Origin: Prosthecobacter sp.
GTDB taxonomy: Bacteria; Verrucomicrobiota; Verrucomicrobiia; Verrucomicrobiales; Verrucomicrobiaceae
NCBI RefSeq assembly: GCF_014879935.1
Contig: NZ_JACSRD010000129.1
Location: 1-47,483 of the forward strand
Direction of reading: 5' to 3'
Length of the DNA: 47,483 nucleotides
Position numbers and translations under genes: made by a program. How positions within the stretch are numbered: the first letter of the stretch is position 1; every line of letters starts with the position of its first letter. The notes beneath the pieces are model-generated. The model was not told where the DNA came from, made no database searches, and saw only the letters and a program-made list of their open reading frames with translations. This document shows, in pieces, positions 32,064 to 45,325 of this stretch.

Positions 32064-34451
32064 TTACTTGGTCACGGCAGAGGTGCGATACCCGTCAGGA
32101 ATGCCCGGCTTGAGCGGGAACGGAATGGCGAGCGGTGTGCCCTTGGTCTTGTCCTCGACCTGCGGCACATCGTATTTGCCGAGTTTCTGGAGGTAGGAGA
32201 TCAGGGCGACGATCTTCGTGTCCGGCAGGGCGCCGGGGCGGCCTTGCGCTTCGAGTTCCTTGGCGATCTGGATGCCCTGTTCGACGGCCTTGGTCTTCAC
32301 CTCGGTCTCCGTCATGGCAGGATAAGGCACCCCGAGCTTTGTCAGCACGCCGATCTTGCTCCACAGGGTCTTCTGATCGTATTTTTCGTCAAAGAGGTGG
32401 GGATAAGGGGGCATGTTCGAGCCGACGGAGATGAGGCGCGGGTCCTTCATGTGGTCGTAGTGCCAGCTATGCGGGTATTTGCCGCCTTCACGGGCAAGGT
32501 CCGGTCCGGTGCGCTTCGATCCCCATTGGAAGGGATGATCGTAGATGCTCTCGCCGAGGCGGCTGTAATCACCGTAGCGCAGCACGTCCGGCAGCATGGT
32601 GCGGATCATCTGCGAGTGGCAGTTGTAGCAGCCTTCGCTGACGTAGATGTCGCGCCCGGCGAGTTCGAGCGGCGTGTACACCTGCTGGATGCGATCCTCG
32701 ACGTTCTGCGCACGATTCACCATGACGGTCGGGATGATCTGGATCAGGCCGCCGAGGGCCACAGCGACGAAGGTGAGCACGGTGAAGGGCATCCAGTTGT
32801 TCAGCAGGCTTTCATACCAGTTCGACCAGCGATGGTGGCTCTTCTGGAAACGCTTCACTGCAAGGACGGCGAAGATGCCAGCGCAGATGAGGGCGGCGAT
32901 GTCGGCCCCCGGCGGCAGGAACAACCAGGCGAGCACCAGGATCAGCCCGGCGAACATGCAGGCAATGGGATCATTGAGGAAGGTCTCCTTCAGACCCATC
33001 GTGTCGCGCTGGTGGCGCTCGATCACGGCCACCTCACGGGTTTCGTTGACGGCCTTGCCCTTGCGGATGGTGATCCAGATGTTCAGCGCCATCAGGATCA
33101 TGCCCACCAGGTAGAGCGAGCCGCCGATGATGCGGAAGCCCATCATGGCGCGGATCGAGGTCAGCGTGTCGATGAAGTTCGGGTAAACGAGCGCCGTGCC
33201 ATCCGGAGTCGTGGCATTCAACATGAGGCCCTGCATGATGCCGGACACCCACATGGAGCCGACATAGACCAGGATGCCGATGAGGCCGAGCCAGAAGTGG
33301 AAGTTCGCCCAGCTCTGGGAGTGCAGCTTCGTGCCATACAGACGCGGCGTGAGCCAGTAGAACATGCCGGCGGCCATGAAGCCGTTCCAGCCCATCGCAC
33401 CGGAGTGCACGTGGCCGATGGTCCAGTCCGAGTAGTGCGAGAGGGAGTTCACCGCACGGATCGAAAGCAGCGGGCCTTCAAAGGTGGACATGCCGTAGAA
33501 AGTCACGGCAGCGATGAAGAACTTCACCACAGGATCGGTGCGCAGCTTGTCCCAGGCGCCGCGGAGCGTGAGCAGGCCGTTGAGCATGCCGCCCCAGCTC
33601 GGAGCCCACAGCATCAGGGAAAAGAACATGCCCAGCATCTGCAGCCATTTCGGCAGCGCGGTGTTGAGGAGGTGATGCGGACCCGCCCAGATGTAGATGA
33701 ACACCAGTGACCAGAAGTGAACGATGGACAGGCGATACGAATACACCGGACGCTCCACCGCCTTCGGCAGGAAGTAATACATGATGCCGAGGATCGGCGT
33801 GGTCAGGAAGAAGGCGACGGCATTGTGACCATACCACCACTGCACCAGGGCGTTCTGCACACCGGCGAAGACCGAGTAGCTGTGCGTCAGGCTCGTTGGA
33901 ATCGACAGGTGGTTCACGATGTAGAGCAGGGCGATTGTGATGATCGTGGATATGTAGAACCACAGCGCCACGTAGAGGGAGGGCTCGTTGCGCTTTGCCA
34001 GCGTCCAGAAGAAGTTCACCGCGAACACCACCCAGATCAGCGCCACGGCGATGTTGATCGGCCAGATGAGCTCGGCGTATTCCTGCCCGCGTGTGAGGCC
34101 CAGCGGCAGCGTGATGGCCGCGCTCACAATGATCAACTGCCAGCCCCAGAAGTGGATCTTCGACAGCAGGTCCGAAGCCATCCGTGCCTTGCACAGGCGC
34201 TGCGTCGAATAATAGATGCCGGCGAACATCATGTTCCCCACGAAGGCGAAGATCACCGCGTTTGTGTGCAGCGGGCGGAGGCGGCCGAAGGTCAGCCAGG
34301 ATGCGACATTGAGCTGGTGGAAGTTCAGCTGCGAGGCGATGAAGACGCCCGCCAGCATGCCGACGATGCCCCAGATGATGGAGGCCAGCATGAACTGTCG
34401 GACGACCTTGTCATCGAACTCGATCGTGATTTTTGAGGTGGTGGTGGTCAT
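32064..34451 (-). CDS. ccoNO: Fused cbb3 oxidase subunits I and II (CcoN-CcoO)
   Basis: This 795-residue protein joins the catalytic subunit CcoN (residues ~1-480) to the mono-haem subunit CcoO (~560-795) in one chain, linked by two extra hydrophobic segments (~495-535). CcoN haem/copper ligand regions are visible: RPLHTNAVIFAF, WWYGHNAVAFF, WAGPHHLLNTALP and GHVHSGAMGWNG. The CcoO part has GCYNCHSQMIR with the haem site C608-x2-C611-H612 and the methionine-ligand region MPPYPHLF. It reduces oxygen to water with high affinity and pumps protons. Such fusions are known in Bacteroidota and relatives. The gene follows ccoS by 18 bases. Confidence 0.96.
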   Translation of the reverse strand: MTTTTSKITIEFDDKVVRQFMLASIIWGIVGMLAGVFIASQLNFHQLNVASWLTFGRLRPLHTNAVIFAFVGNMMFAGIYYSTQRLCKARMASDLLSKIHFWGWQLIIVSAAITLPLGLTRGQEYAELIWPINIAVALIWVVFAVNFFWTLAKRNEPSLYVALWFYISTIITIALLYIVNHLSIPTSLTHSYSVFAGVQNALVQWWYGHNAVAFFLTTPILGIMYYFLPKAVERPVYSYRLSIVHFWSLVFIYIWAGPHHLLNTALPKWLQMLGMFFSLMLWAPSWGGMLNGLLTLRGAWDKLRTDPVVKFFIAAVTFYGMSTFEGPLLSIRAVNSLSHYSDWTIGHVHSGAMGWNGFMAAGMFYWLTPRLYGTKLHSQSWANFHFWLGLIGILVYVGSMWVSGIMQGLMLNATTPDGTALVYPNFIDTLTSIRAMMGFRIIGGSLYLVGMILMALNIWITIRKGKAVNETREVAVIERHQRDTMGLKETFLNDPIACMFAGLILVLAWLFLPPGADIAALICAGIFAVLAVKRFQKSHHRWSNWYESLLNNWMPFTVLTFVAVALGGLIQIIPTVMVNRAQNVEDRIQQVYTPLELAGRDIYVSEGCYNCHSQMIRTMLPDVLRYGDYSRLGESIYDHPFQWGSKRTGPDLAREGGKYPHSWHYDHMKDPRLISVGSNMPPYPHLFDEKYDQKTLWSKIGVLTKLGVPYPAMTETEVKTKAVEQGIQIAKELEAQGRPGALPDTKIVALISYLQKLGKYDVPQVEDKTKGTPLAIPFPLKPGIPDGYRTSAVTK

Positions 34452-37261: not shown

Positions 37262-40135
37262 TCAAGCCGCGATTCCCTTGATGAAGGTCGCGACATAGTC
37301 CACTACCCGCTCAAAAACTCTCCTCTTCGATGGTCCGCGCTCCATCACCTTCATCGGCTTGAGGATGATCTCGGCGATGTCGGGATCCGGCAGCGGGGCT
37401 TGGCCGGTATAGACGTAGCGGTCGATCACTTTCTTGAGCTTGTCGGCATCGAGGTCTTCCTCGGCCACGAGCTGGTCAAAGGCGGCCACGCGTTCCTTTT
37501 CCCAGAAGGCCTCGAAGCTGTCGGGGATCTCCGCTTCGCTGCCGACGTTCGGCAGGTTGTCCTCGATGAATTTCTCGATCAGCTTCGCCTTGCTGCGCAG
37601 CTCAATGTCGCCAGTCACGCTGTCGAGGATGAGCTTGCGGAGCTTCGGTGCCTCCTCGGCATCGGCGCTGTAGAGGCGGGCGAGCAATTGCAGGATGTAC
37701 TGCACGTTGATCACGTCCCGGTGGATCAGTTCCAGCTCGAAATCCACGTCATTGAGGATGCTGGCCTTCTGCACCTGATTGTCGGACTTCACCTTGTCGT
37801 AGAGGTCCAGGTAGGCGCTGCGGTAGTCGGCGAAACGCTGGGCGGGCAGGGACAAATCGTTGTCGTCGAACTCGGAGAAGCTTTCCAGGATGTTCCGCAG
37901 GCGCATCAGCTCGCGGAAGATCTTCACGAACTGCATCTCCGCCTCCTCGTCCTTCAAATCCTTCACGCTTTTCACCGTCGGCGTCAGCTTGAGCAGCTCC
38001 ACGACCACCTCGTTGAACTTGGCAACGTAGTCCTCGTAGGGCGGCACAAAGACCGTCTCCTTCGCGTTCACATCGGCAAAGAGCGCGAGAGCTTCGTCCG
38101 TGCGCTTCTTGAGGTTGCGAAAGACCACGATGTTCCCCTGGCTCTTCACCTCATTGAGGATGCGGTTCGTGCGGGAGTAGGCCTGGATGAGGCCGTGGTG
38201 CTTCAGGTTCTTGTCCACCCACAGCGTGTTCAGCGTCTTGCTGTCGAATCCGGTGAGGAACATGTTCACGACCAGCAGCAGGTCCACCTTCCGCTCCTTC
38301 ACCTTCTTGGCGATGTCCTGGTAGTAGCTGTAAAAGCTCTGCGTGTCCTTCGTCGAGAAGGCGGTGCCAAACATCGCATTGTAGTCGCCGATGAATTTCT
38401 CCAGCTTCTCCCGCGTGTGCGGATCACCGCCCTCGCCGCCGATGATCTCCCCGCCTTCGTCGAGGATGCCGTCGGCGTCCTTGTCCTCCTCGTTGCTCGT
38501 GTAGCTGAAGATCGTCGCCACGCGCAGCTTGTGCTTCCCGGCGGCTTTCCGGGCGGCAAACAGCTCGTAATACTGGATGAGCGTTTCCACGCTGCTCACG
38601 CACATCATCGCGGTGAACTCCTTGTTCCGTGTTTTCACCGCGTGGTGCTCGATGACGTAGTCCACGATCTTCTCCAGCCGCTGCGGAGAGTTCATGAGTT
38701 CCTTCGTGTCGATGCCTTCGACCTCGATGTCCACCTCCGTGGCGCTGCCAGGCTTGCGCTGGTAGCGGCCCACATACTCCACGGCAAATTTCAGCACGTT
38801 CTCGTCCTTGATGGCGTCCGTGATGACGTAGCTGTGCAGCTTCTGGTGAAAGAGGTCCTTCGTGGTGTGCTTCTTGCCGTCCTTGCTCACCGCGTTCTCG
38901 GCAAAGATGGGCGTGCCGGTGAAGCCGAACATCTGGTGGTTCGTGAAGAACTCCGTGATGCGCCGGTGCGTGTCGCCGAACTGGCTGCGGTGGCACTCGT
39001 CGAAGATGAAGATGATCCGCTCGCCCCTCAGCTTCTCCATCTGCTTCAGATGCGCCTGCTTGCTGATCGCCGTGTTCAGCTTTTGCAGGGTGGTCACGAT
39101 CAGCTTCGTCGTGTCATCGCTGAACTGCCGCACCAGCGTCTTCGTGTCGTTCGTGCTGTCCACGCTATCCTTCTGGAAGCCATTGAACTCCTTGATCGTC
39201 TGGTAGTCGAGGTCCTTGCGGTCCACGCAGAAGACCACTTTCGCGATGCTCGACAGCGCCGTGAGGATTTGCGCCGCCTTGAAGCTCGTCAGCGTCTTGC
39301 CGCTGCCGGTGGTGTGCCAGATGTAGCCGTTCGGGTTCTCGGCGGGCGGATTCAGCACCCGCTCCACGATCCGCTCCACCGCGTAGTATTGATACGGACG
39401 CAGCACCATCAGCACCTTGTCCGTCTCATTGAGCACGATGTATTTCCCGATCATCGCGCCCAAATGCTCGCGATTCAGGAAGGCGGAGGCAAAGGCCGGC
39501 AGCTCGCGGATCGTCTTGTTGTCCTCTGCCGCCCAGTAAAAGGTCTGCTTGAAGCTCTGCCGCCGCGCATTGGCGTAATACTTCGTGTTCACCCCGTTGG
39601 AGATCACAAAGAGCTGCACGAACTGGAACAAGCCCTGCCCGCTCCAGAAACTGTGCTTCTGGTAGCGCTGGATCTGATTGAAGGCCTCCTTCATCTCCAG
39701 CCCGCGACGCTTCAGCTCGATCTGCACCAGCGGCAGGCCGTTGACCAGGATCGTCACGTCATAGCGATTCTTGAAGGTGCCCTCCGCCGTCACCTGCTGC
39801 GTCACTTGGTAGCGATTCTTGAGTGGGTTCGCGCCTTCGAAGAAGCTGATCCACACCGTGCTGCCGTCGTCACGCTTCAGTTGCATCCGGTCCCGCAGCG
39901 TCTTCGCCTTCGCAAAGACACCCGCCGCGCGGTTCAGGTGGTTCAAGACCTTGCTGAACTCCAGCTCGGACAGTTTCAGCCCGTTGAAGGCTCCCAACTC
40001 GGCTTTCAGGTTTGCCAGCATCGTCGCCTCATCCGTCACCGCCGCCTTCGCGAAGCCCTGTCCCACGAGTTGAGCCACCAGCTCGTTTTCGAGAGCTTGC
40101 TCCGGCTGGGTGAATGGGAGGGTGTTGGGTGGCAT
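37262..40135 (-). CDS. hsdR: Type I restriction endonuclease, HsdR subunit
   Basis: This 957-residue protein is the motor/nuclease subunit of a type I restriction-modification system. The N-terminal nuclease has the YDVTILV segment followed by QIELKRRG, with E140-L141-K142 as the PD-(D/E)xK core. The helicase part has Walker A HTTGSGKT (274-281, K280), DECHR (D379) and the later motifs GFTGTPIF and YSRTNRILNE. The C-terminal helical region should bind HsdM. All motifs look intact. It lies 52 bases after fic on the same strand and closes the locus. Type I enzymes translocate DNA and cut away from the recognition site. Confidence 0.96.
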   Translation of the reverse strand: MPPNTLPFTQPEQALENELVAQLVGQGFAKAAVTDEATMLANLKAELGAFNGLKLSELEFSKVLNHLNRAAGVFAKAKTLRDRMQLKRDDGSTVWISFFEGANPLKNRYQVTQQVTAEGTFKNRYDVTILVNGLPLVQIELKRRGLEMKEAFNQIQRYQKHSFWSGQGLFQFVQLFVISNGVNTKYYANARRQSFKQTFYWAAEDNKTIRELPAFASAFLNREHLGAMIGKYIVLNETDKVLMVLRPYQYYAVERIVERVLNPPAENPNGYIWHTTGSGKTLTSFKAAQILTALSSIAKVVFCVDRKDLDYQTIKEFNGFQKDSVDSTNDTKTLVRQFSDDTTKLIVTTLQKLNTAISKQAHLKQMEKLRGERIIFIFDECHRSQFGDTHRRITEFFTNHQMFGFTGTPIFAENAVSKDGKKHTTKDLFHQKLHSYVITDAIKDENVLKFAVEYVGRYQRKPGSATEVDIEVEGIDTKELMNSPQRLEKIVDYVIEHHAVKTRNKEFTAMMCVSSVETLIQYYELFAARKAAGKHKLRVATIFSYTSNEEDKDADGILDEGGEIIGGEGGDPHTREKLEKFIGDYNAMFGTAFSTKDTQSFYSYYQDIAKKVKERKVDLLLVVNMFLTGFDSKTLNTLWVDKNLKHHGLIQAYSRTNRILNEVKSQGNIVVFRNLKKRTDEALALFADVNAKETVFVPPYEDYVAKFNEVVVELLKLTPTVKSVKDLKDEEAEMQFVKIFRELMRLRNILESFSEFDDNDLSLPAQRFADYRSAYLDLYDKVKSDNQVQKASILNDVDFELELIHRDVINVQYILQLLARLYSADAEEAPKLRKLILDSVTGDIELRSKAKLIEKFIEDNLPNVGSEAEIPDSFEAFWEKERVAAFDQLVAEEDLDADKLKKVIDRYVYTGQAPLPDPDIAEIILKPMKVMERGPSKRRVFERVVDYVATFIKGIAA

Positions 40136-40187: not shown

Positions 40188-41261
40188 CTACGAGGAGGGG
40201 AGCTGGATCGTGGTGAGCAGGTGGTAGAGGGGGCGGTTGATGTAGAAGTTGCTCCGGCTGATCTTTGCTTTCTCGACGAAGCCTGCCTGCGTCAGTTGAT
40301 CCAGGTATTTCATCGCCGTCGGGCGGGAGACGCCCAGCTCTTTTTCGATGAATTCGATCTTCGTATAGGGGTGGCGGAAGAGGTTGTTCAGCAGATCCTG
40401 GCTGTAGAGCTTCGGCAGCTCTGTCCGCAGCCGGTGCTTGTAGTCCAGCATCAGGTCCCGCAGGGCCTTGATGAGCTGGATTTCACTGCGGGCGGTCTGT
40501 GCCACGCCTTTCAGCATGTAGAGGCACCACTCCGCCCTGCGGTTCTGCTCCCGCACGGTTTGCAGCAGTTCGTAGTAGGCGGCTTTGTTTTGATTGATGT
40601 AGCGGCTCAGGTAGAGCAGCGGCAGCTCCAGTAAATCTTCCCGGATCAGCAGCAGGATGTTTAAAATGCGCCCCGTGCGGCCATTCCCATCATAAAAAGG
40701 GTGGATGCTCTCAAACTGATGATGCACCACCGCCATCCGTAGCAGCGGGTCCAGCCCGTCATCCGCGTGGATGTAGTCGATCAGGTTCCCCATCAGCGAC
40801 TCCACCTCGGCGGCATCCTGCGGCGGTTCATAGATCACCCGGCCGGTGGCTTCGTTCTTCAGAACGGTGCCAGGCAGCTTCCGCAGTCCCGCGCGGTTCT
40901 GTTCCAGCTCTGCCTGCACGGCCAGCACCGTCTCCAGGCGGATCAGCCCGCTGCCACGCACGGCTTCATAGCCCGTCCGCAGAGCCGCCATATAGTTTTG
41001 CACCTCATTGGCCGCCGGGGTGCCAGACTGTCCATGGGCTGCATACAGCTCATCATGCGTGGTGATGATGTTCTCGATCTCGGAGCTGTCCTTCGCTTCC
41101 TGGATCGCCAGTGTTTCCAGCAGCAGGGCTGGATTTGGCAGGTAGGCACACAGCCCTTTCAGTTCCGCCAGCCACCGGTGCGCATCCCGCAGCGCCCGCC
41201 AGACCTGCGCAGACTCCAGCGCGGAGAGGTCAGCCAGCGGCAATGGGGAGAGGGAGGCCAT
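40188..41261 (-). CDS. Fic-family protein with N-terminal inhibitory motif
   Basis: This 357-residue protein has the complete Fic core HPFYDGNGRTGR, with H187 the catalytic histidine. The inhibitory motif S-x3-E-N is in the N-terminal part (S59 and E63-N64 in SSEIEN), as in class II Fic proteins. A C-terminal winged-helix segment (~285-340: KELGVSRPTAMKYLDQLTQAG) may bind DNA. Fic proteins usually transfer AMP onto target proteins. The gene is inserted between hsdS and hsdR on the same strand, a neighbourhood seen for this type of Fic in other type I loci. The target is unknown; HsdR, HsdM or a host protein are possible. Confidence 0.93.
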   Translation of the reverse strand: MASLSPLPLADLSALESAQVWRALRDAHRWLAELKGLCAYLPNPALLLETLAIQEAKDSSEIENIITTHDELYAAHGQSGTPAANEVQNYMAALRTGYEAVRGSGLIRLETVLAVQAELEQNRAGLRKLPGTVLKNEATGRVIYEPPQDAAEVESLMGNLIDYIHADDGLDPLLRMAVVHHQFESIHPFYDGNGRTGRILNILLLIREDLLELPLLYLSRYINQNKAAYYELLQTVREQNRRAEWCLYMLKGVAQTARSEIQLIKALRDLMLDYKHRLRTELPKLYSQDLLNNLFRHPYTKIEFIEKELGVSRPTAMKYLDQLTQAGFVEKAKISRSNFYINRPLYHLLTTIQLPSS

Positions 41262-41575: not shown

Positions 41576-42028
41576 TCAATCCCACACATACCGTTCGTCA
41601 TATTGGATCTTGTGCTTGGTCAGAAACTCCAGGTATTCCTCCTGAAAGGTCTTCACCCGGTGGTGCTCTTCTTGAGTGCGGATGTAGTTCGCCACCTTCG
41701 GCACGTTGGACTCGCTCACGGAAAATCCGCCGTATCCGGCTTGCCACGCAAACTGCCCGAACTTCGGCCCCTGTGTCTTGATCCATTTGGAGGACGACTT
41801 CTTCACGTCTTCCACCACCTGGGCCAAAGTCACCGTGCGCCCCATGTTGAAGAGGACATGCACATGGTCCTCCACCGAGTTGATGAGCACCGCCGGGGAG
41901 TTCAGATTCGCCAGCACCGTCGCCATGTAGGCGTGTAGATCGGGGCGCACGTCTTTGGAGAGAAACGGAAACCGTTCCTTCGTCGAGAAGATCAGGTGGA
42001 CGTAGAGGTTGGCGAGCGATTGCGGCAT
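41576..42028 (-). CDS. tnpA: IS200/IS605-family transposase TnpA
   Basis: This 150-residue protein is a full-length Y1 transposase of the IS200 type. It starts MPQSLANLYVHLIFSTKER, carries the HUH motif H55-V-H57 in VEDHVHVLF and the catalytic tyrosine Y115 in VPKVANYIRTQEEHH. Proteins of this family excise and insert single-stranded DNA at short hairpins. No tnpB accompanies it. It lies between inverted copies of a 23-bp end sequence (41528-41550 and 42051-42073) and interrupts the space between hsdS and fic. The in-frame extension to 42091 is encoded by the repeat, so the ATG at 42028 is used. Confidence 0.93.
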   Translation of the reverse strand: MPQSLANLYVHLIFSTKERFPFLSKDVRPDLHAYMATVLANLNSPAVLINSVEDHVHVLFNMGRTVTLAQVVEDVKKSSSKWIKTQGPKFGQFAWQAGYGGFSVSESNVPKVANYIRTQEEHHRVKTFQEEYLEFLTKHKIQYDERYVWD

Positions 42029-42050
42029 GTGAGATGATGCGCGTTGGGAT

Positions 42051-42275
42051 TTAGGTCGCCCCTTCAGGGCTCCGGGATGTCCTTCGTCCACGCTACCCCA
42101 GGGCGTTGCCCTGGGCTACGGTAGTTTGCACCGTTGGTGCGGAAGAATCAGACAAACGATGTAAAACCATGTGTGCCCCGTGGATCGGAGCGCCAAAGGC
42201 GCGGCCTATCGCAGCCCAGGGCAAGGCCCTGGGTTGGCGGCGCAAAGACACCGGAGCCCTGTAGGGGCGATCTAA
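42051..42275. repeat. MITE-like composite repeat, copy B, with 23-bp terminal inverted repeats
   Basis: The ends 42051-42073 (ttaggtcgccccttcagggc plus tcc) and 42253-42275 are inverted repeats with two mismatches in 23. Inside are a cccagggc palindrome in each orientation, the gcaccgttggtgc hairpin (42129-42141) and gcgccaaaggcgc. About 45 bases at 42143-42186 replace the corresponding short spacer of copies A and C. No gene inside. It directly precedes the transposase start. Confidence 0.85.
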
Positions 42276-42521: not shown

Positions 42522-43757
42522 TCACACAAACATCTGCTGCAGCAGCCCCTTCTTCCAGGCCTGCGTCTGCCTCATCTGCTCTCCCACCGCCCCGATCTTC
42601 CCGTCCAACGCGCTCAGGAAGCTCGCGATCTTCGTTTGTTCGGGCAGGCTGGGGAGGCGCAGCAACAGGCCCTTGAGCTGATCTGGGTAAAGATGCACCA
42701 CCGAGCTCCCTTGAGCGACCCGCGCTATGGCGTGTTTGCAGGCATTGTTCAGGTAGTAGGCCAAGAAAACACCGTTCTGCTTGGTCTGCATGATGTTCAG
42801 GTCTCCTCCCAACGCGACATCGTCGTGAATGACACAAGCCGCTCGTGCGATGTCGATGTGGGTCTCTCCCGATGATGGAATAATGACATCGTTCTTGCGG
42901 CTCATGACCAAATCTTTGCGTGGAAGACTGGTCCGGGACTTAACTTCATCGATGAGCTCACCATAGTCGGTGTAGAGTTCGCCGTAGCGAATGCAGGGCG
43001 TGTCCCCGTTCGCATCAATATCAGCTTTGGAGATACCTGAACCCTTCGTGATCGTTGCCACTTGGCTTAACCGCTTCTCCTCCCAATCCGGGAAGTCGTG
43101 GCCGTGGTCGTCTTGGAAGCGGAGGGTTTGGGTGAAGAGCTGTTGCATCACGCCCTTCTTGTAGGCCTCCAGCAGGGCTTTCTTCCGGCTCAGTTGCTCG
43201 ATCCGCCCATCCACCGCCGTCAGGAACGCCGCGACCTTTTGCTGCTCGGGGACATACGGGAGTGTGACTTCAAGATTCTTGAGCAAATCACCACTGAGGT
43301 TCTTTTGACTGCCATCATTACTCAATTGGCGCAGTTCGGTATATCGACGCTGCAGATCATAGAACAGATATTCGTTCACCAACCGGCGGTCGTGGATCAA
43401 CATGGCTGCACATGCCTGATTTGTCGCTGCTTCAAACTCAAGTATCGCAACCTTACCTCTAGTGACCCCTTGCCCATACAAGGCCATTATCACTGTGCCT
43501 TTCGGAAAAAGTTTAGCGGACGAGTTATCCAAGCCTTCATCCGTGATAAACTCATCAGCACACGAGACGCGGTTAAAATCGATCAGAGAAGTTGTGACCC
43601 AAGGAATCTGACCATCCCAATATCTTGGTATTTGTCTGCTTGGTGTTCCGCCTGATGTGACTTTGGCCACCTCACCAAGTTTGATTTGGAATGCATCGTC
43701 ACTAAACCCCGGAAACCTGAGCTTGGGCACGTGGGCGGATGTTTTCGTCGTGCTCAT
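42522..43757 (-). CDS. hsdS: Type I specificity subunit HsdS
   Basis: This 411-residue protein has two target-recognition domains (~20-165 and ~225-365), each followed by a conserved helical spacer: PEQQKVAAFLTAVDGRIEQL (from ~168) and PEQTKIASFLSALDGKIGAV (from ~372), both continuing to a KKG(V/L)xQQ(L/M)F end. It should recognise a bipartite DNA sequence; the sequence itself cannot be predicted. The start overlaps the hsdM stop by 4 bases (ATGA). The first recognition domain (43260-43680) is visibly more AT-rich than its surroundings, consistent with exchange of this domain by recombination. Its 3' end is duplicated downstream at 42296-42357. Confidence 0.95.
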   Translation of the reverse strand: MSTTKTSAHVPKLRFPGFSDDAFQIKLGEVAKVTSGGTPSRQIPRYWDGQIPWVTTSLIDFNRVSCADEFITDEGLDNSSAKLFPKGTVIMALYGQGVTRGKVAILEFEAATNQACAAMLIHDRRLVNEYLFYDLQRRYTELRQLSNDGSQKNLSGDLLKNLEVTLPYVPEQQKVAAFLTAVDGRIEQLSRKKALLEAYKKGVMQQLFTQTLRFQDDHGHDFPDWEEKRLSQVATITKGSGISKADIDANGDTPCIRYGELYTDYGELIDEVKSRTSLPRKDLVMSRKNDVIIPSSGETHIDIARAACVIHDDVALGGDLNIMQTKQNGVFLAYYLNNACKHAIARVAQGSSVVHLYPDQLKGLLLRLPSLPEQTKIASFLSALDGKIGAVGEQMRQTQAWKKGLLQQMFV

Positions 43758-45325
43758 GCCAGCGGTGCTTTGATTCCCAACTCCGCGCAGAACCCGGCGA
43801 TGACCTGGTCGTTCTCGCGCATGGACTTCTCCAGCTCGGCGAGCTGGGTGGCGACGGCATCGAGGTCGATCTGCTCCTCCTCGTCGAAGGTATCGACGTA
43901 GCGGGGGATGTTGAGGTTGAACTCGTTTTCCTGCACTTGGCGGAGGTCGGCCACGTGGCTGAACTTTTCCTCGCTGCGGCGCTGCCGGTAGGTGGTGACG
44001 ATGCGCTCGATGTGCTCGGGGCGGAGCTGGTTCTGGTTCCCCACCTTTTCAAAGCCCTGGCTGGCATCAATGAACAAGATGTCGTCCGGGTGCTCGCGGC
44101 CTTTTTTCAGCACGAGGATGCAGGTGGGGATGCCGGAGTCTTTAAAAATGTTCGCCGGCAGGCCGATGACGGCGTCCAGGTAGTTGCAGGTGTCGATGAG
44201 GTAGCGGCGGATGTGCCCCTCCGCGCCGCCACGGAACAGGACGCCATGCGGCAACACGCAGGCCATGGTGCCTCCATGCTCCAGGTGGTGGATCATGTGC
44301 TGCACAAAGGCGAAGTCCGCCTTCGACGAGGGGGCCAGCTTCCCATAGGCGCTGAAACGGTCGTCGCCCTTCAGCACCTCGCTGGCGGACCATTTCACGG
44401 AGAAGGCCAAACTGGCCACGACGGCCTCAAAGCGCAGGTCGGCATGCTCCGGCGCGGGATGCTCCAGCGTGTCCTCATTCCGCAGGTCGAAGCGCTGATA
44501 ATGCACGCCGTGCAGGATCATGTTCATGCGGGCGAGGTTGTAGGTGGTGGGGTTCATCTCCTGCCCGTAGAAGTGGCCCACGTCCTCCACCTCCTTCGCC
44601 ACTCGCAGCAGCAGGGAGCCGGAGCCGCAGGTGGGGTCATAGACGCTCTTCAGGCTCTTCTTCCCGGTGGTGACGATCTTTGCCAAAATGGTGCTGACCT
44701 CCTGCGGCGTGTAGAACTCCCCGGCCTTCTTTCCCGCGCCGCTGGCAAACTGGCCGATGAGATACTCATAGGCATCCCCCAGCACGTCCGCCTCGGTATC
44801 GGCCAGGCGGAAGTCGATCTTGTCCAGATGCACGAGCACCTTGGCGATGAGTTCGTTCTTCTGGTTCTCGGTCTTGCCGAGCTTTGACGAGCCGAGGTCG
44901 AGGTCCTCAAACAGTCCCTCAAAGTCCTCCTCGCTGTCATGCCCCATGGTGCTGGACTCGATGTGCTTCAGGATGGCGGCGAGGTCCTCCAAAATGAAGT
45001 TGTCCTCCTTCCGCGCCCCTTTCTCCGCCACGCGATGAAACAGCTCCGCGGGCTTTAAGAAGTAACCCAGACGCTCCACCGCCTCCTTTTCGATGGCCTC
45101 CAGCATCTCTTTGCCCTCGGCGGACTTTTCATCCAGCTCGGCAAAGGTGACGCCGTCGTGTTTCAGGATCTCATCCGCGAAGAGGTGGATGCGCTCGGAG
45201 AGGTATTTGTAGAAGATGAAGCCCAGGATGTAGTCCCGGAACTCATCCGCCCCCATCTTCCCGCGCAGCGTGTTGGCGATGTTCCAGAGCTGGGTGTGGA
45301 GGGTCTGTTTGGCGTCGTCGGGCAT
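43754..45325 (-). CDS. hsdM: Type I methyltransferase subunit HsdM with altered motif IV
   Basis: This 523-residue protein has the N-terminal HsdM helical domain (LWNIANTLRGKM, DEFRDYILGFIFYKYLSER). The SAM-binding motif I is intact (D230-PTCGSGSLLL) and the C-terminal HsdM region is normal (SKADFAFVQHMIHHL, GVLFRGGAEGHIRRYL, DASQGFEKVGNQN). The catalytic motif IV, which should read [NDS]PP[YFW], is S305-L306-A307-F308 in VVASLAFSVKW. The reading frame and flanks are otherwise family-like, so this is a replacement of the motif and not a frameshift. The protein may therefore bind SAM and DNA but not methylate. Start at ATG 45325 fits the family; an ATG five codons upstream (45340) is possible. 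Confidence 0.93.
   Translation of the reverse strand: MPDDAKQTLHTQLWNIANTLRGKMGADEFRDYILGFIFYKYLSERIHLFADEILKHDGVTFAELDEKSAEGKEMLEAIEKEAVERLGYFLKPAELFHRVAEKGARKEDNFILEDLAAILKHIESSTMGHDSEEDFEGLFEDLDLGSSKLGKTENQKNELIAKVLVHLDKIDFRLADTEADVLGDAYEYLIGQFASGAGKKAGEFYTPQEVSTILAKIVTTGKKSLKSVYDPTCGSGSLLLRVAKEVEDVGHFYGQEMNPTTYNLARMNMILHGVHYQRFDLRNEDTLEHPAPEHADLRFEAVVASLAFSVKWSASEVLKGDDRFSAYGKLAPSSKADFAFVQHMIHHLEHGGTMACVLPHGVLFRGGAEGHIRRYLIDTCNYLDAVIGLPANIFKDSGIPTCILVLKKGREHPDDILFIDASQGFEKVGNQNQLRPEHIERIVTTYRQRRSEEKFSHVADLRQVQENEFNLNIPRYVDTFDEEEQIDLDAVATQLAELEKSMRENDQVIAGFCAELGIKAPLA

Follow-up and report, generated by a model that had tools for sequence, protein, structure and literature searches.

The window analysed here, the whole stretch of 47,483 nucleotides, carries a Type I restriction-modification locus in which hsdM, hsdS and hsdR lie together with uninterrupted reading frames (Table 1). 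The gene order after hsdM is hsdS, an IS200-like transposase gene, fic and hsdR, with the fic and Y1 transposase genes thus standing between hsdS and hsdR, and the hsdM stop codon (43754-43756) overlaps the hsdS start. The fic product contains the sequence SSEIEN, which we take to be a possible self-inhibition motif. Fic-like genes 28-30% identical to that of the window were also seen downstream of hsdS at two other loci (L040 and L041). Elsewhere in the window (32064-34451), a single open frame of 795 residues joins COX1 and FixO domains and apparently encodes a fused cbb3 oxidase subunit.

Table 1. Features of the restriction-modification locus, in coordinates of the window
Feature	Position	Strand	Details
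hsdM coding sequence	43757..45325	minus	523 codons, ATG at 45325; TIGR00497, PF02384, PF12161
Motif I (SAM site), DPTCGSGS	44615..44638	minus	intact in the window HsdM
First cluster, V302-K311	44393..44422	minus	seven window-derived base changes in 30 nt
Altered motif IV, S305-L306-A307-F308	44402..44413	minus	in place of NPPF
Second cluster, K395-D396-S397	44135..44143	minus	Y-G-T in the nearest relatives; immediately after F394
hsdS	42522..43757	minus	411 aa, two specificity stretches, PF01420
IS200-like (Y1) transposase gene	41576..42091	minus	between hsdS and fic; PF01797
fic gene, SoFic-like	40188..41261	minus	between hsdS and hsdR; HPFYDGNGRTGR present
hsdR	37262..40135	minus	957 aa; ELK, GSGKT, DECH, GFTGTP, QAYSRTNR present

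The HsdM protein belongs by descent to the Type I family, scoring 438 bits against NCBIfam TIGR00497 (cut-off 242.75), and both domains of the family are present, N6_Mtase with 350.7 bits and HsdM_N with 73.2 bits. The motif I sequence expected of a gamma-class amino-methyltransferase was found, and the nuclease and motor motifs of HsdR were found as well; a reading made from the sequence only had already called the former normal and HsdR apparently intact, and both statements are borne out. Among solved structures, the Streptococcus thermophilus Type I M subunit (PDB 3lkd) matches HsdM as the same family over nearly its full length (426.3 bits), and EcoR124I M (7bst, 358.6 bits) ranks second among the chains matched. 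HsdR for its part carries the EcoR124_C domain (PF12008, 224.6 bits), and this domain together with an M subunit close to EcoR124I M is presumably a marker of the Type IC-like subclass, to which we assign the system. Two other assignments do not fit. For the MADS system, the mad2 model NF047738 gave 66.5 bits against a cut-off of 720, and in PADLOC mad2 reached 180.9 bits, far under the Type I model at 559.6. The non-canonical M1M2S enzyme PacII (PDB 7vru) has a homologous M fold, but it uses two M subunits, with NPPF and NPPY, whereas the window operon has one hsdM. An arrangement resembling the PacII type does occur on another contig of the same genome (C49), where tandem HsdM genes (L002 and L003) carry NPPF and NPPY.

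The unusual feature of this hsdM is its catalytic motif IV. On the minus strand the codons AGT TTG GCC TTC (44413-44402) encode S305-L306-A307-F308, numbered from the ATG, so that SLAF stands where an active gamma-class amino-methyltransferase is expected to have its motif IV, typically NPP(Y/F/W) in amino-methyltransferases (PMC3874165; here and below, PMC numbers refer to excerpts of the papers). The sequence-only reading had located SLAF correctly and had described it as a departure from [NDS]PP[YFW]. This holds for the two prolines, both of which differ, but not for the first residue, since serine fits that very pattern; serine at this position is tolerated in other amino-methylases. The residue changes of the whole first cluster are I302V, N305S, P306L, P307A, A310V and N311K. 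A single base error, which had already been thought insufficient, is ruled out because four window-derived base changes lie in the three codons and seven in the 30-nt cluster. The C-terminal half of the protein had been described as normal, and so it is with the sole exception of a second odd cluster at K395-D396-S397.

HsdM homologues were surveyed in four genome searches (386, 337, 274 and 299 genomes), in the genome that holds the window and in IMG/VR. The matches listed, up to 30 loci for each genome search, together with the best 80 of the 85 in IMG/VR gave 204 loci with 202 distinct proteins, a sample that leans to close relatives because it was drawn in this way. One of the proteins, L061, ends before motif IV, and 201 cover the site. 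The count leaves out copies of the window (L001, L048, L049, L053 and L056), loci from pattern scans (L038, L039, L054 and L164-L168), L050-L052, and larger regions (L040-L047) that repeat genes already counted. Among these matches, NPP[FY] is present in 196 of the 201 homologues (145 NPPF and 51 NPPY), and the other five differ by one residue each (2 NMPF, 1 NPHF, 1 NFPF and 1 NPPV), four of them at a proline, in agreement with the earlier claim that the prolines are nearly invariant. The alignment and search for SLAF elsewhere that had been proposed thus returned none in the 201 distinct HsdM-like proteins covering the site, among the matches listed; none of them is altered at more than one motif IV residue, and all 136 that cover the site with at least 40% identity keep NPP[FY]. 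The NPHF, NFPF and NPPV variants are L125, L148 and L194, respectively. The NMPF variants (L227 and L228) come from two genomes in the group around a Liquorilactobacillus record; their open frames are 531 and 527 aa long, and in each case the matched stretch contains one stop.

A degenerate DNA pattern for SLAF in its context matched twice in genome_contigs (84,980 species) and once in IMG/VR, each time outside an HsdM. These three (L038, L039 and L054, of which the last two are an identical stretch) match no protein of the window operon and were rejected as chance. The scan was exact and used one degenerate context, so SLAF in other contexts escapes it, and it samples few genes, because NPPF in the same context matches five IMG/VR stretches. 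A search of plasmids with a 24-residue query gave nothing above 66.7% identity. The KDS pattern of the second cluster was found in the window alone among 48 genomes of the genus, and it gave no match in IMG/VR.

Among the matches listed from 386 genomes of the order, the nearest relatives of the window hsdM are L009, L010 and L022, two of the three from the same genus. Their proteins are 92-95% identical to the window HsdM over the aligned part, yet all three have NPPF and YGT where the window has SLAF and KDS, and the hsdR genes of L009 and L022 are 94-95% identical to that of the window. The hsdM of L010 has a premature stop near residue 76 and that of L022 a frameshift near residue 72; the hsdR at the latter locus (also L042) has no stops, and no hsdR stop was found on the L010 contig up to its end. 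These breaks may be assembly errors; genuine breaks would suggest that the lineage tolerates losing M while keeping R.

A base was called window-derived where L009, L010 and L011 share one base, the window has another and L022 does not have that of the window. There are 26 such changes in hsdM, of which 13 are nonsynonymous if taken singly. With the two clusters delimited after the data had been seen, 12 of the 26 fall inside them, seven in the 30 nt around motif IV and five across 11 nt of the second cluster, and 11 of the 14 changes outside the clusters are synonymous. A stretch of 33 nt contains six of the nonsynonymous changes, and none of 20,000 random placements of 13 such changes was as dense. 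At positions that do not vary among 19 relatives with identities of 65% or higher, the window-private changes are I302V, N305S, P306L, P307A, A310V and G396D and no others, and against 29 order-level sequences they are only N305S, P306L and P307A (both counts omit residue 1, the final eight residues and some of the N-terminus of L022). The number of these changes is not unusual, as other sequences carry 0 to 5 in the order-level comparison against the window's 3, and in the comparison with 19 relatives L023 carries 9, L026 7 and L027 32 against the window's 6. The private changes of L023, L026 and L027 are scattered along the protein, and it is therefore place and not number that distinguishes the window. 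The few changes elsewhere in hsdM also indicate that the alteration is recent, and their mostly synonymous character would suit a loss that happened very recently or a protein that is still used, not a long decay. No comparable cluster was found in hsdR, whose product has 14 unique residues in 957 when compared with two relatives, the closest pair being neighbours (100-101).

At the second cluster, the window reads N-I-F394 followed by K395-D396-S397. Among the matches listed, 171 of 200 homologues have F[YF][GS]T at this site, none has FKDS, and one distant homologue has FKPY. The solved subunits 3lkd and EcoR124I M differ from the window at both sites, with NPPY in place of SLAF and FFNT or FFGT in place of FKDS. 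The positions were mapped by aligning the window HsdM to PacII M2 (PDB 7vru chain B) and counting residues along the alignment. This places S305-L306-A307-F308 on N285-P286-P287-Y288, F204 on F180 and F394 on F373. In PacII M2, F180, P287, Y288 and F373 form a cage around the flipped base, and the side chain of N285 and the main chain of P286 hydrogen-bond the target amino group, in a subunit that methylates cytosine (excerpt of PMC9613975); the same two hydrogen bonds are described for the adenine enzyme M.TaqI (PMC3874165). By this alignment, each of the three altered motif IV residues falls on a position named as part of the pocket, and KDS comes immediately after a further one, which puts both clusters at the pocket that receives the target base in a Type I methylase bound to DNA. 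The residues matching the pocket aromatics (F204, F308 and F394) are retained. The predicted structure of the window HsdM has 3lkd_A as its best solved fold match (E 3.3e-34, TMq 0.73). From alignments of 16 sequences, mean pLDDT was 74.0 with values below 50 at 307-315 and 395-398, and for the NPPF control L009 it was 68.4 with values below 50 at 306-337 but not at 395-398. The dips in confidence cannot be credited to the substitutions because the control scores worse overall.

Taken on its sequence, this hsdM does not appear to be generally decayed but to be changed locally at its base pocket, with the SAM motif, HsdS and HsdR all apparently intact beside it. The explanation that we consider probable is a recent, localised rewrite of the pocket in a Type IC-like HsdM, by which methyl transfer was lost or strongly reduced and restriction probably went with it. 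The N-P-P stretch, which in relatives that have been studied forms hydrogen bonds to the flipped base at its amino group, has become S-L-A here, and K-D-S now stands in the loop that follows the second pocket aromatic. Methyl transfer would then most likely be lost or very weak. Less certainly, the M2S core may still fold and bind DNA, and a base that is not seated may give no cutting-competent state. The whole system would be silent, with neither restriction nor modification, allowing the cell to live with an intact hsdR, and it would be either at an early stage of decay or retained for binding alone. Complete loss of methyl transfer seems likely, though not proven, because the equivalents of the pocket aromatics are kept. 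Single proline replacements in four of the 201 homologues, among the matches listed, may count against this explanation, as does the tolerance of other amino-methylases for serine at motif IV position 1.

Self-restriction poses a problem only for a complex that has kept its cutting activity. In the fused Type IIG enzyme TspGWI, the NPPY substitution N473A almost abolishes both methylation and cleavage (excerpt of PMC3968444), and by analogy with that enzyme a pocket in which the base is not seated may likewise be unable to license cutting. The same excerpt reports that sinefungin brings cleavage by N473A back and that its clone strongly affects E. coli division, so that a pocket change need not render such an enzyme harmless. 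Natural single HsdM substitutions are described in Mycobacterium tuberculosis, where isolates with hsdM P306L have no GATN4RTAC methylation and isolates with G173D together with hsdS L119R are also without methylation (PMC5760664, in excerpt); P306 there may or may not fall in motif IV.

That the altered pocket still methylates, as an unusual but working catalytic motif, seems to us unlikely. The S305 side chain would provide one hydrogen bond and the L306 main chain would stand in for that of the first proline, with KDS compensating on the facing loop. The pairing of two clusters beside one pocket does resemble compensation, and the retained aromatics, the mostly synonymous changes in the rest of hsdM, the conservation of HsdR and the NMPF variants in open frames, albeit with a stop in each matched stretch, all agree with a working enzyme. 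It is opposed by the survey, in which none of the 201 homologues listed departs from motif IV at more than one residue, and by the single substitutions in TspGWI and M. tuberculosis that go with a loss or near loss of methylation. We regard as improbable a rewriting of the pocket by selection and not by decay, through which a non-methylating HsdMS would read DNA via HsdS and, with HsdR, act as a sequence-specific binder or translocator or as a sensor of foreign modification, leaving the host unmarked. The private changes at the pocket beside intact SAM motif, HsdS and HsdR would be in keeping with this, as would the match of the predicted fold to Type I M subunits, but the altered state was seen in one genome only among those examined and so no lineage shows it being maintained.

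Two further possibilities concern the origin of the clusters. A wrong consensus at two places is conceivable in a draft (G000, 286 contigs, contamination estimate 1.64%), the more so for a singleton, but such an artefact is very unlikely. It would have had to make twelve substitutions in two in-frame clusters without an indel or a stop and to leave hsdR without a comparable cluster, and a contaminating or admixed real hsdM would most likely have brought NPP[FY], which 196 of the 201 listed homologues carry. Nor does the assembly supply a source: the first tract has no other match in it, and the second has only three partial ones (77%, 88% and 74% identity). Two of these (C214 and C49) are in other HsdM-like genes without KDS, and the third (C73) is in an unrelated gene and stops short of the KDS codons; all three were rejected as donors. 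We give only a very slight chance to short tracts of gene conversion or template switching, copied from a diverged donor outside the sample, which would have written both clusters with the same functional outcome as in the pocket-loss explanation. Several adjoining bases are changed in each cluster, as such tracts would do, and the SVKW that follows the motif is an ordinary variant found in EcoR124I M. Against this, no donor was found in the genome, no homologue among the matches listed has SLA or KDS, and the rest of the window has no match of 11 bases or more to either cluster. Matches of 10 bases number seven for the first cluster, one of them within 3 kb, and one for the second, where it covers unaltered bases; we judge these matches in the window uninformative.

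Natural substitutions that remove HsdM function are already known from M. tuberculosis, and hsdM deletion mutants have been made in S. pyogenes, where the deletion removes the whole subunit (PMC8597746, in excerpt). In the literature searched we found no account of a naturally occurring HsdM in which both prolines of motif IV are replaced, and nothing on an EcoKI N266D mutant. A double rewrite of the pocket with hsdR kept appears to be new. In a Type I system whose marking subunit is disabled while the cutting subunit is intact, the chromosome of the cell would be expected to come under attack, so that a case from nature would show whether cutting has to be licensed by base seating in HsdM. 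For the annotation of this family, a full-length, high-scoring hsdM gene is not safely taken to encode an active methylase without inspection of its pocket.
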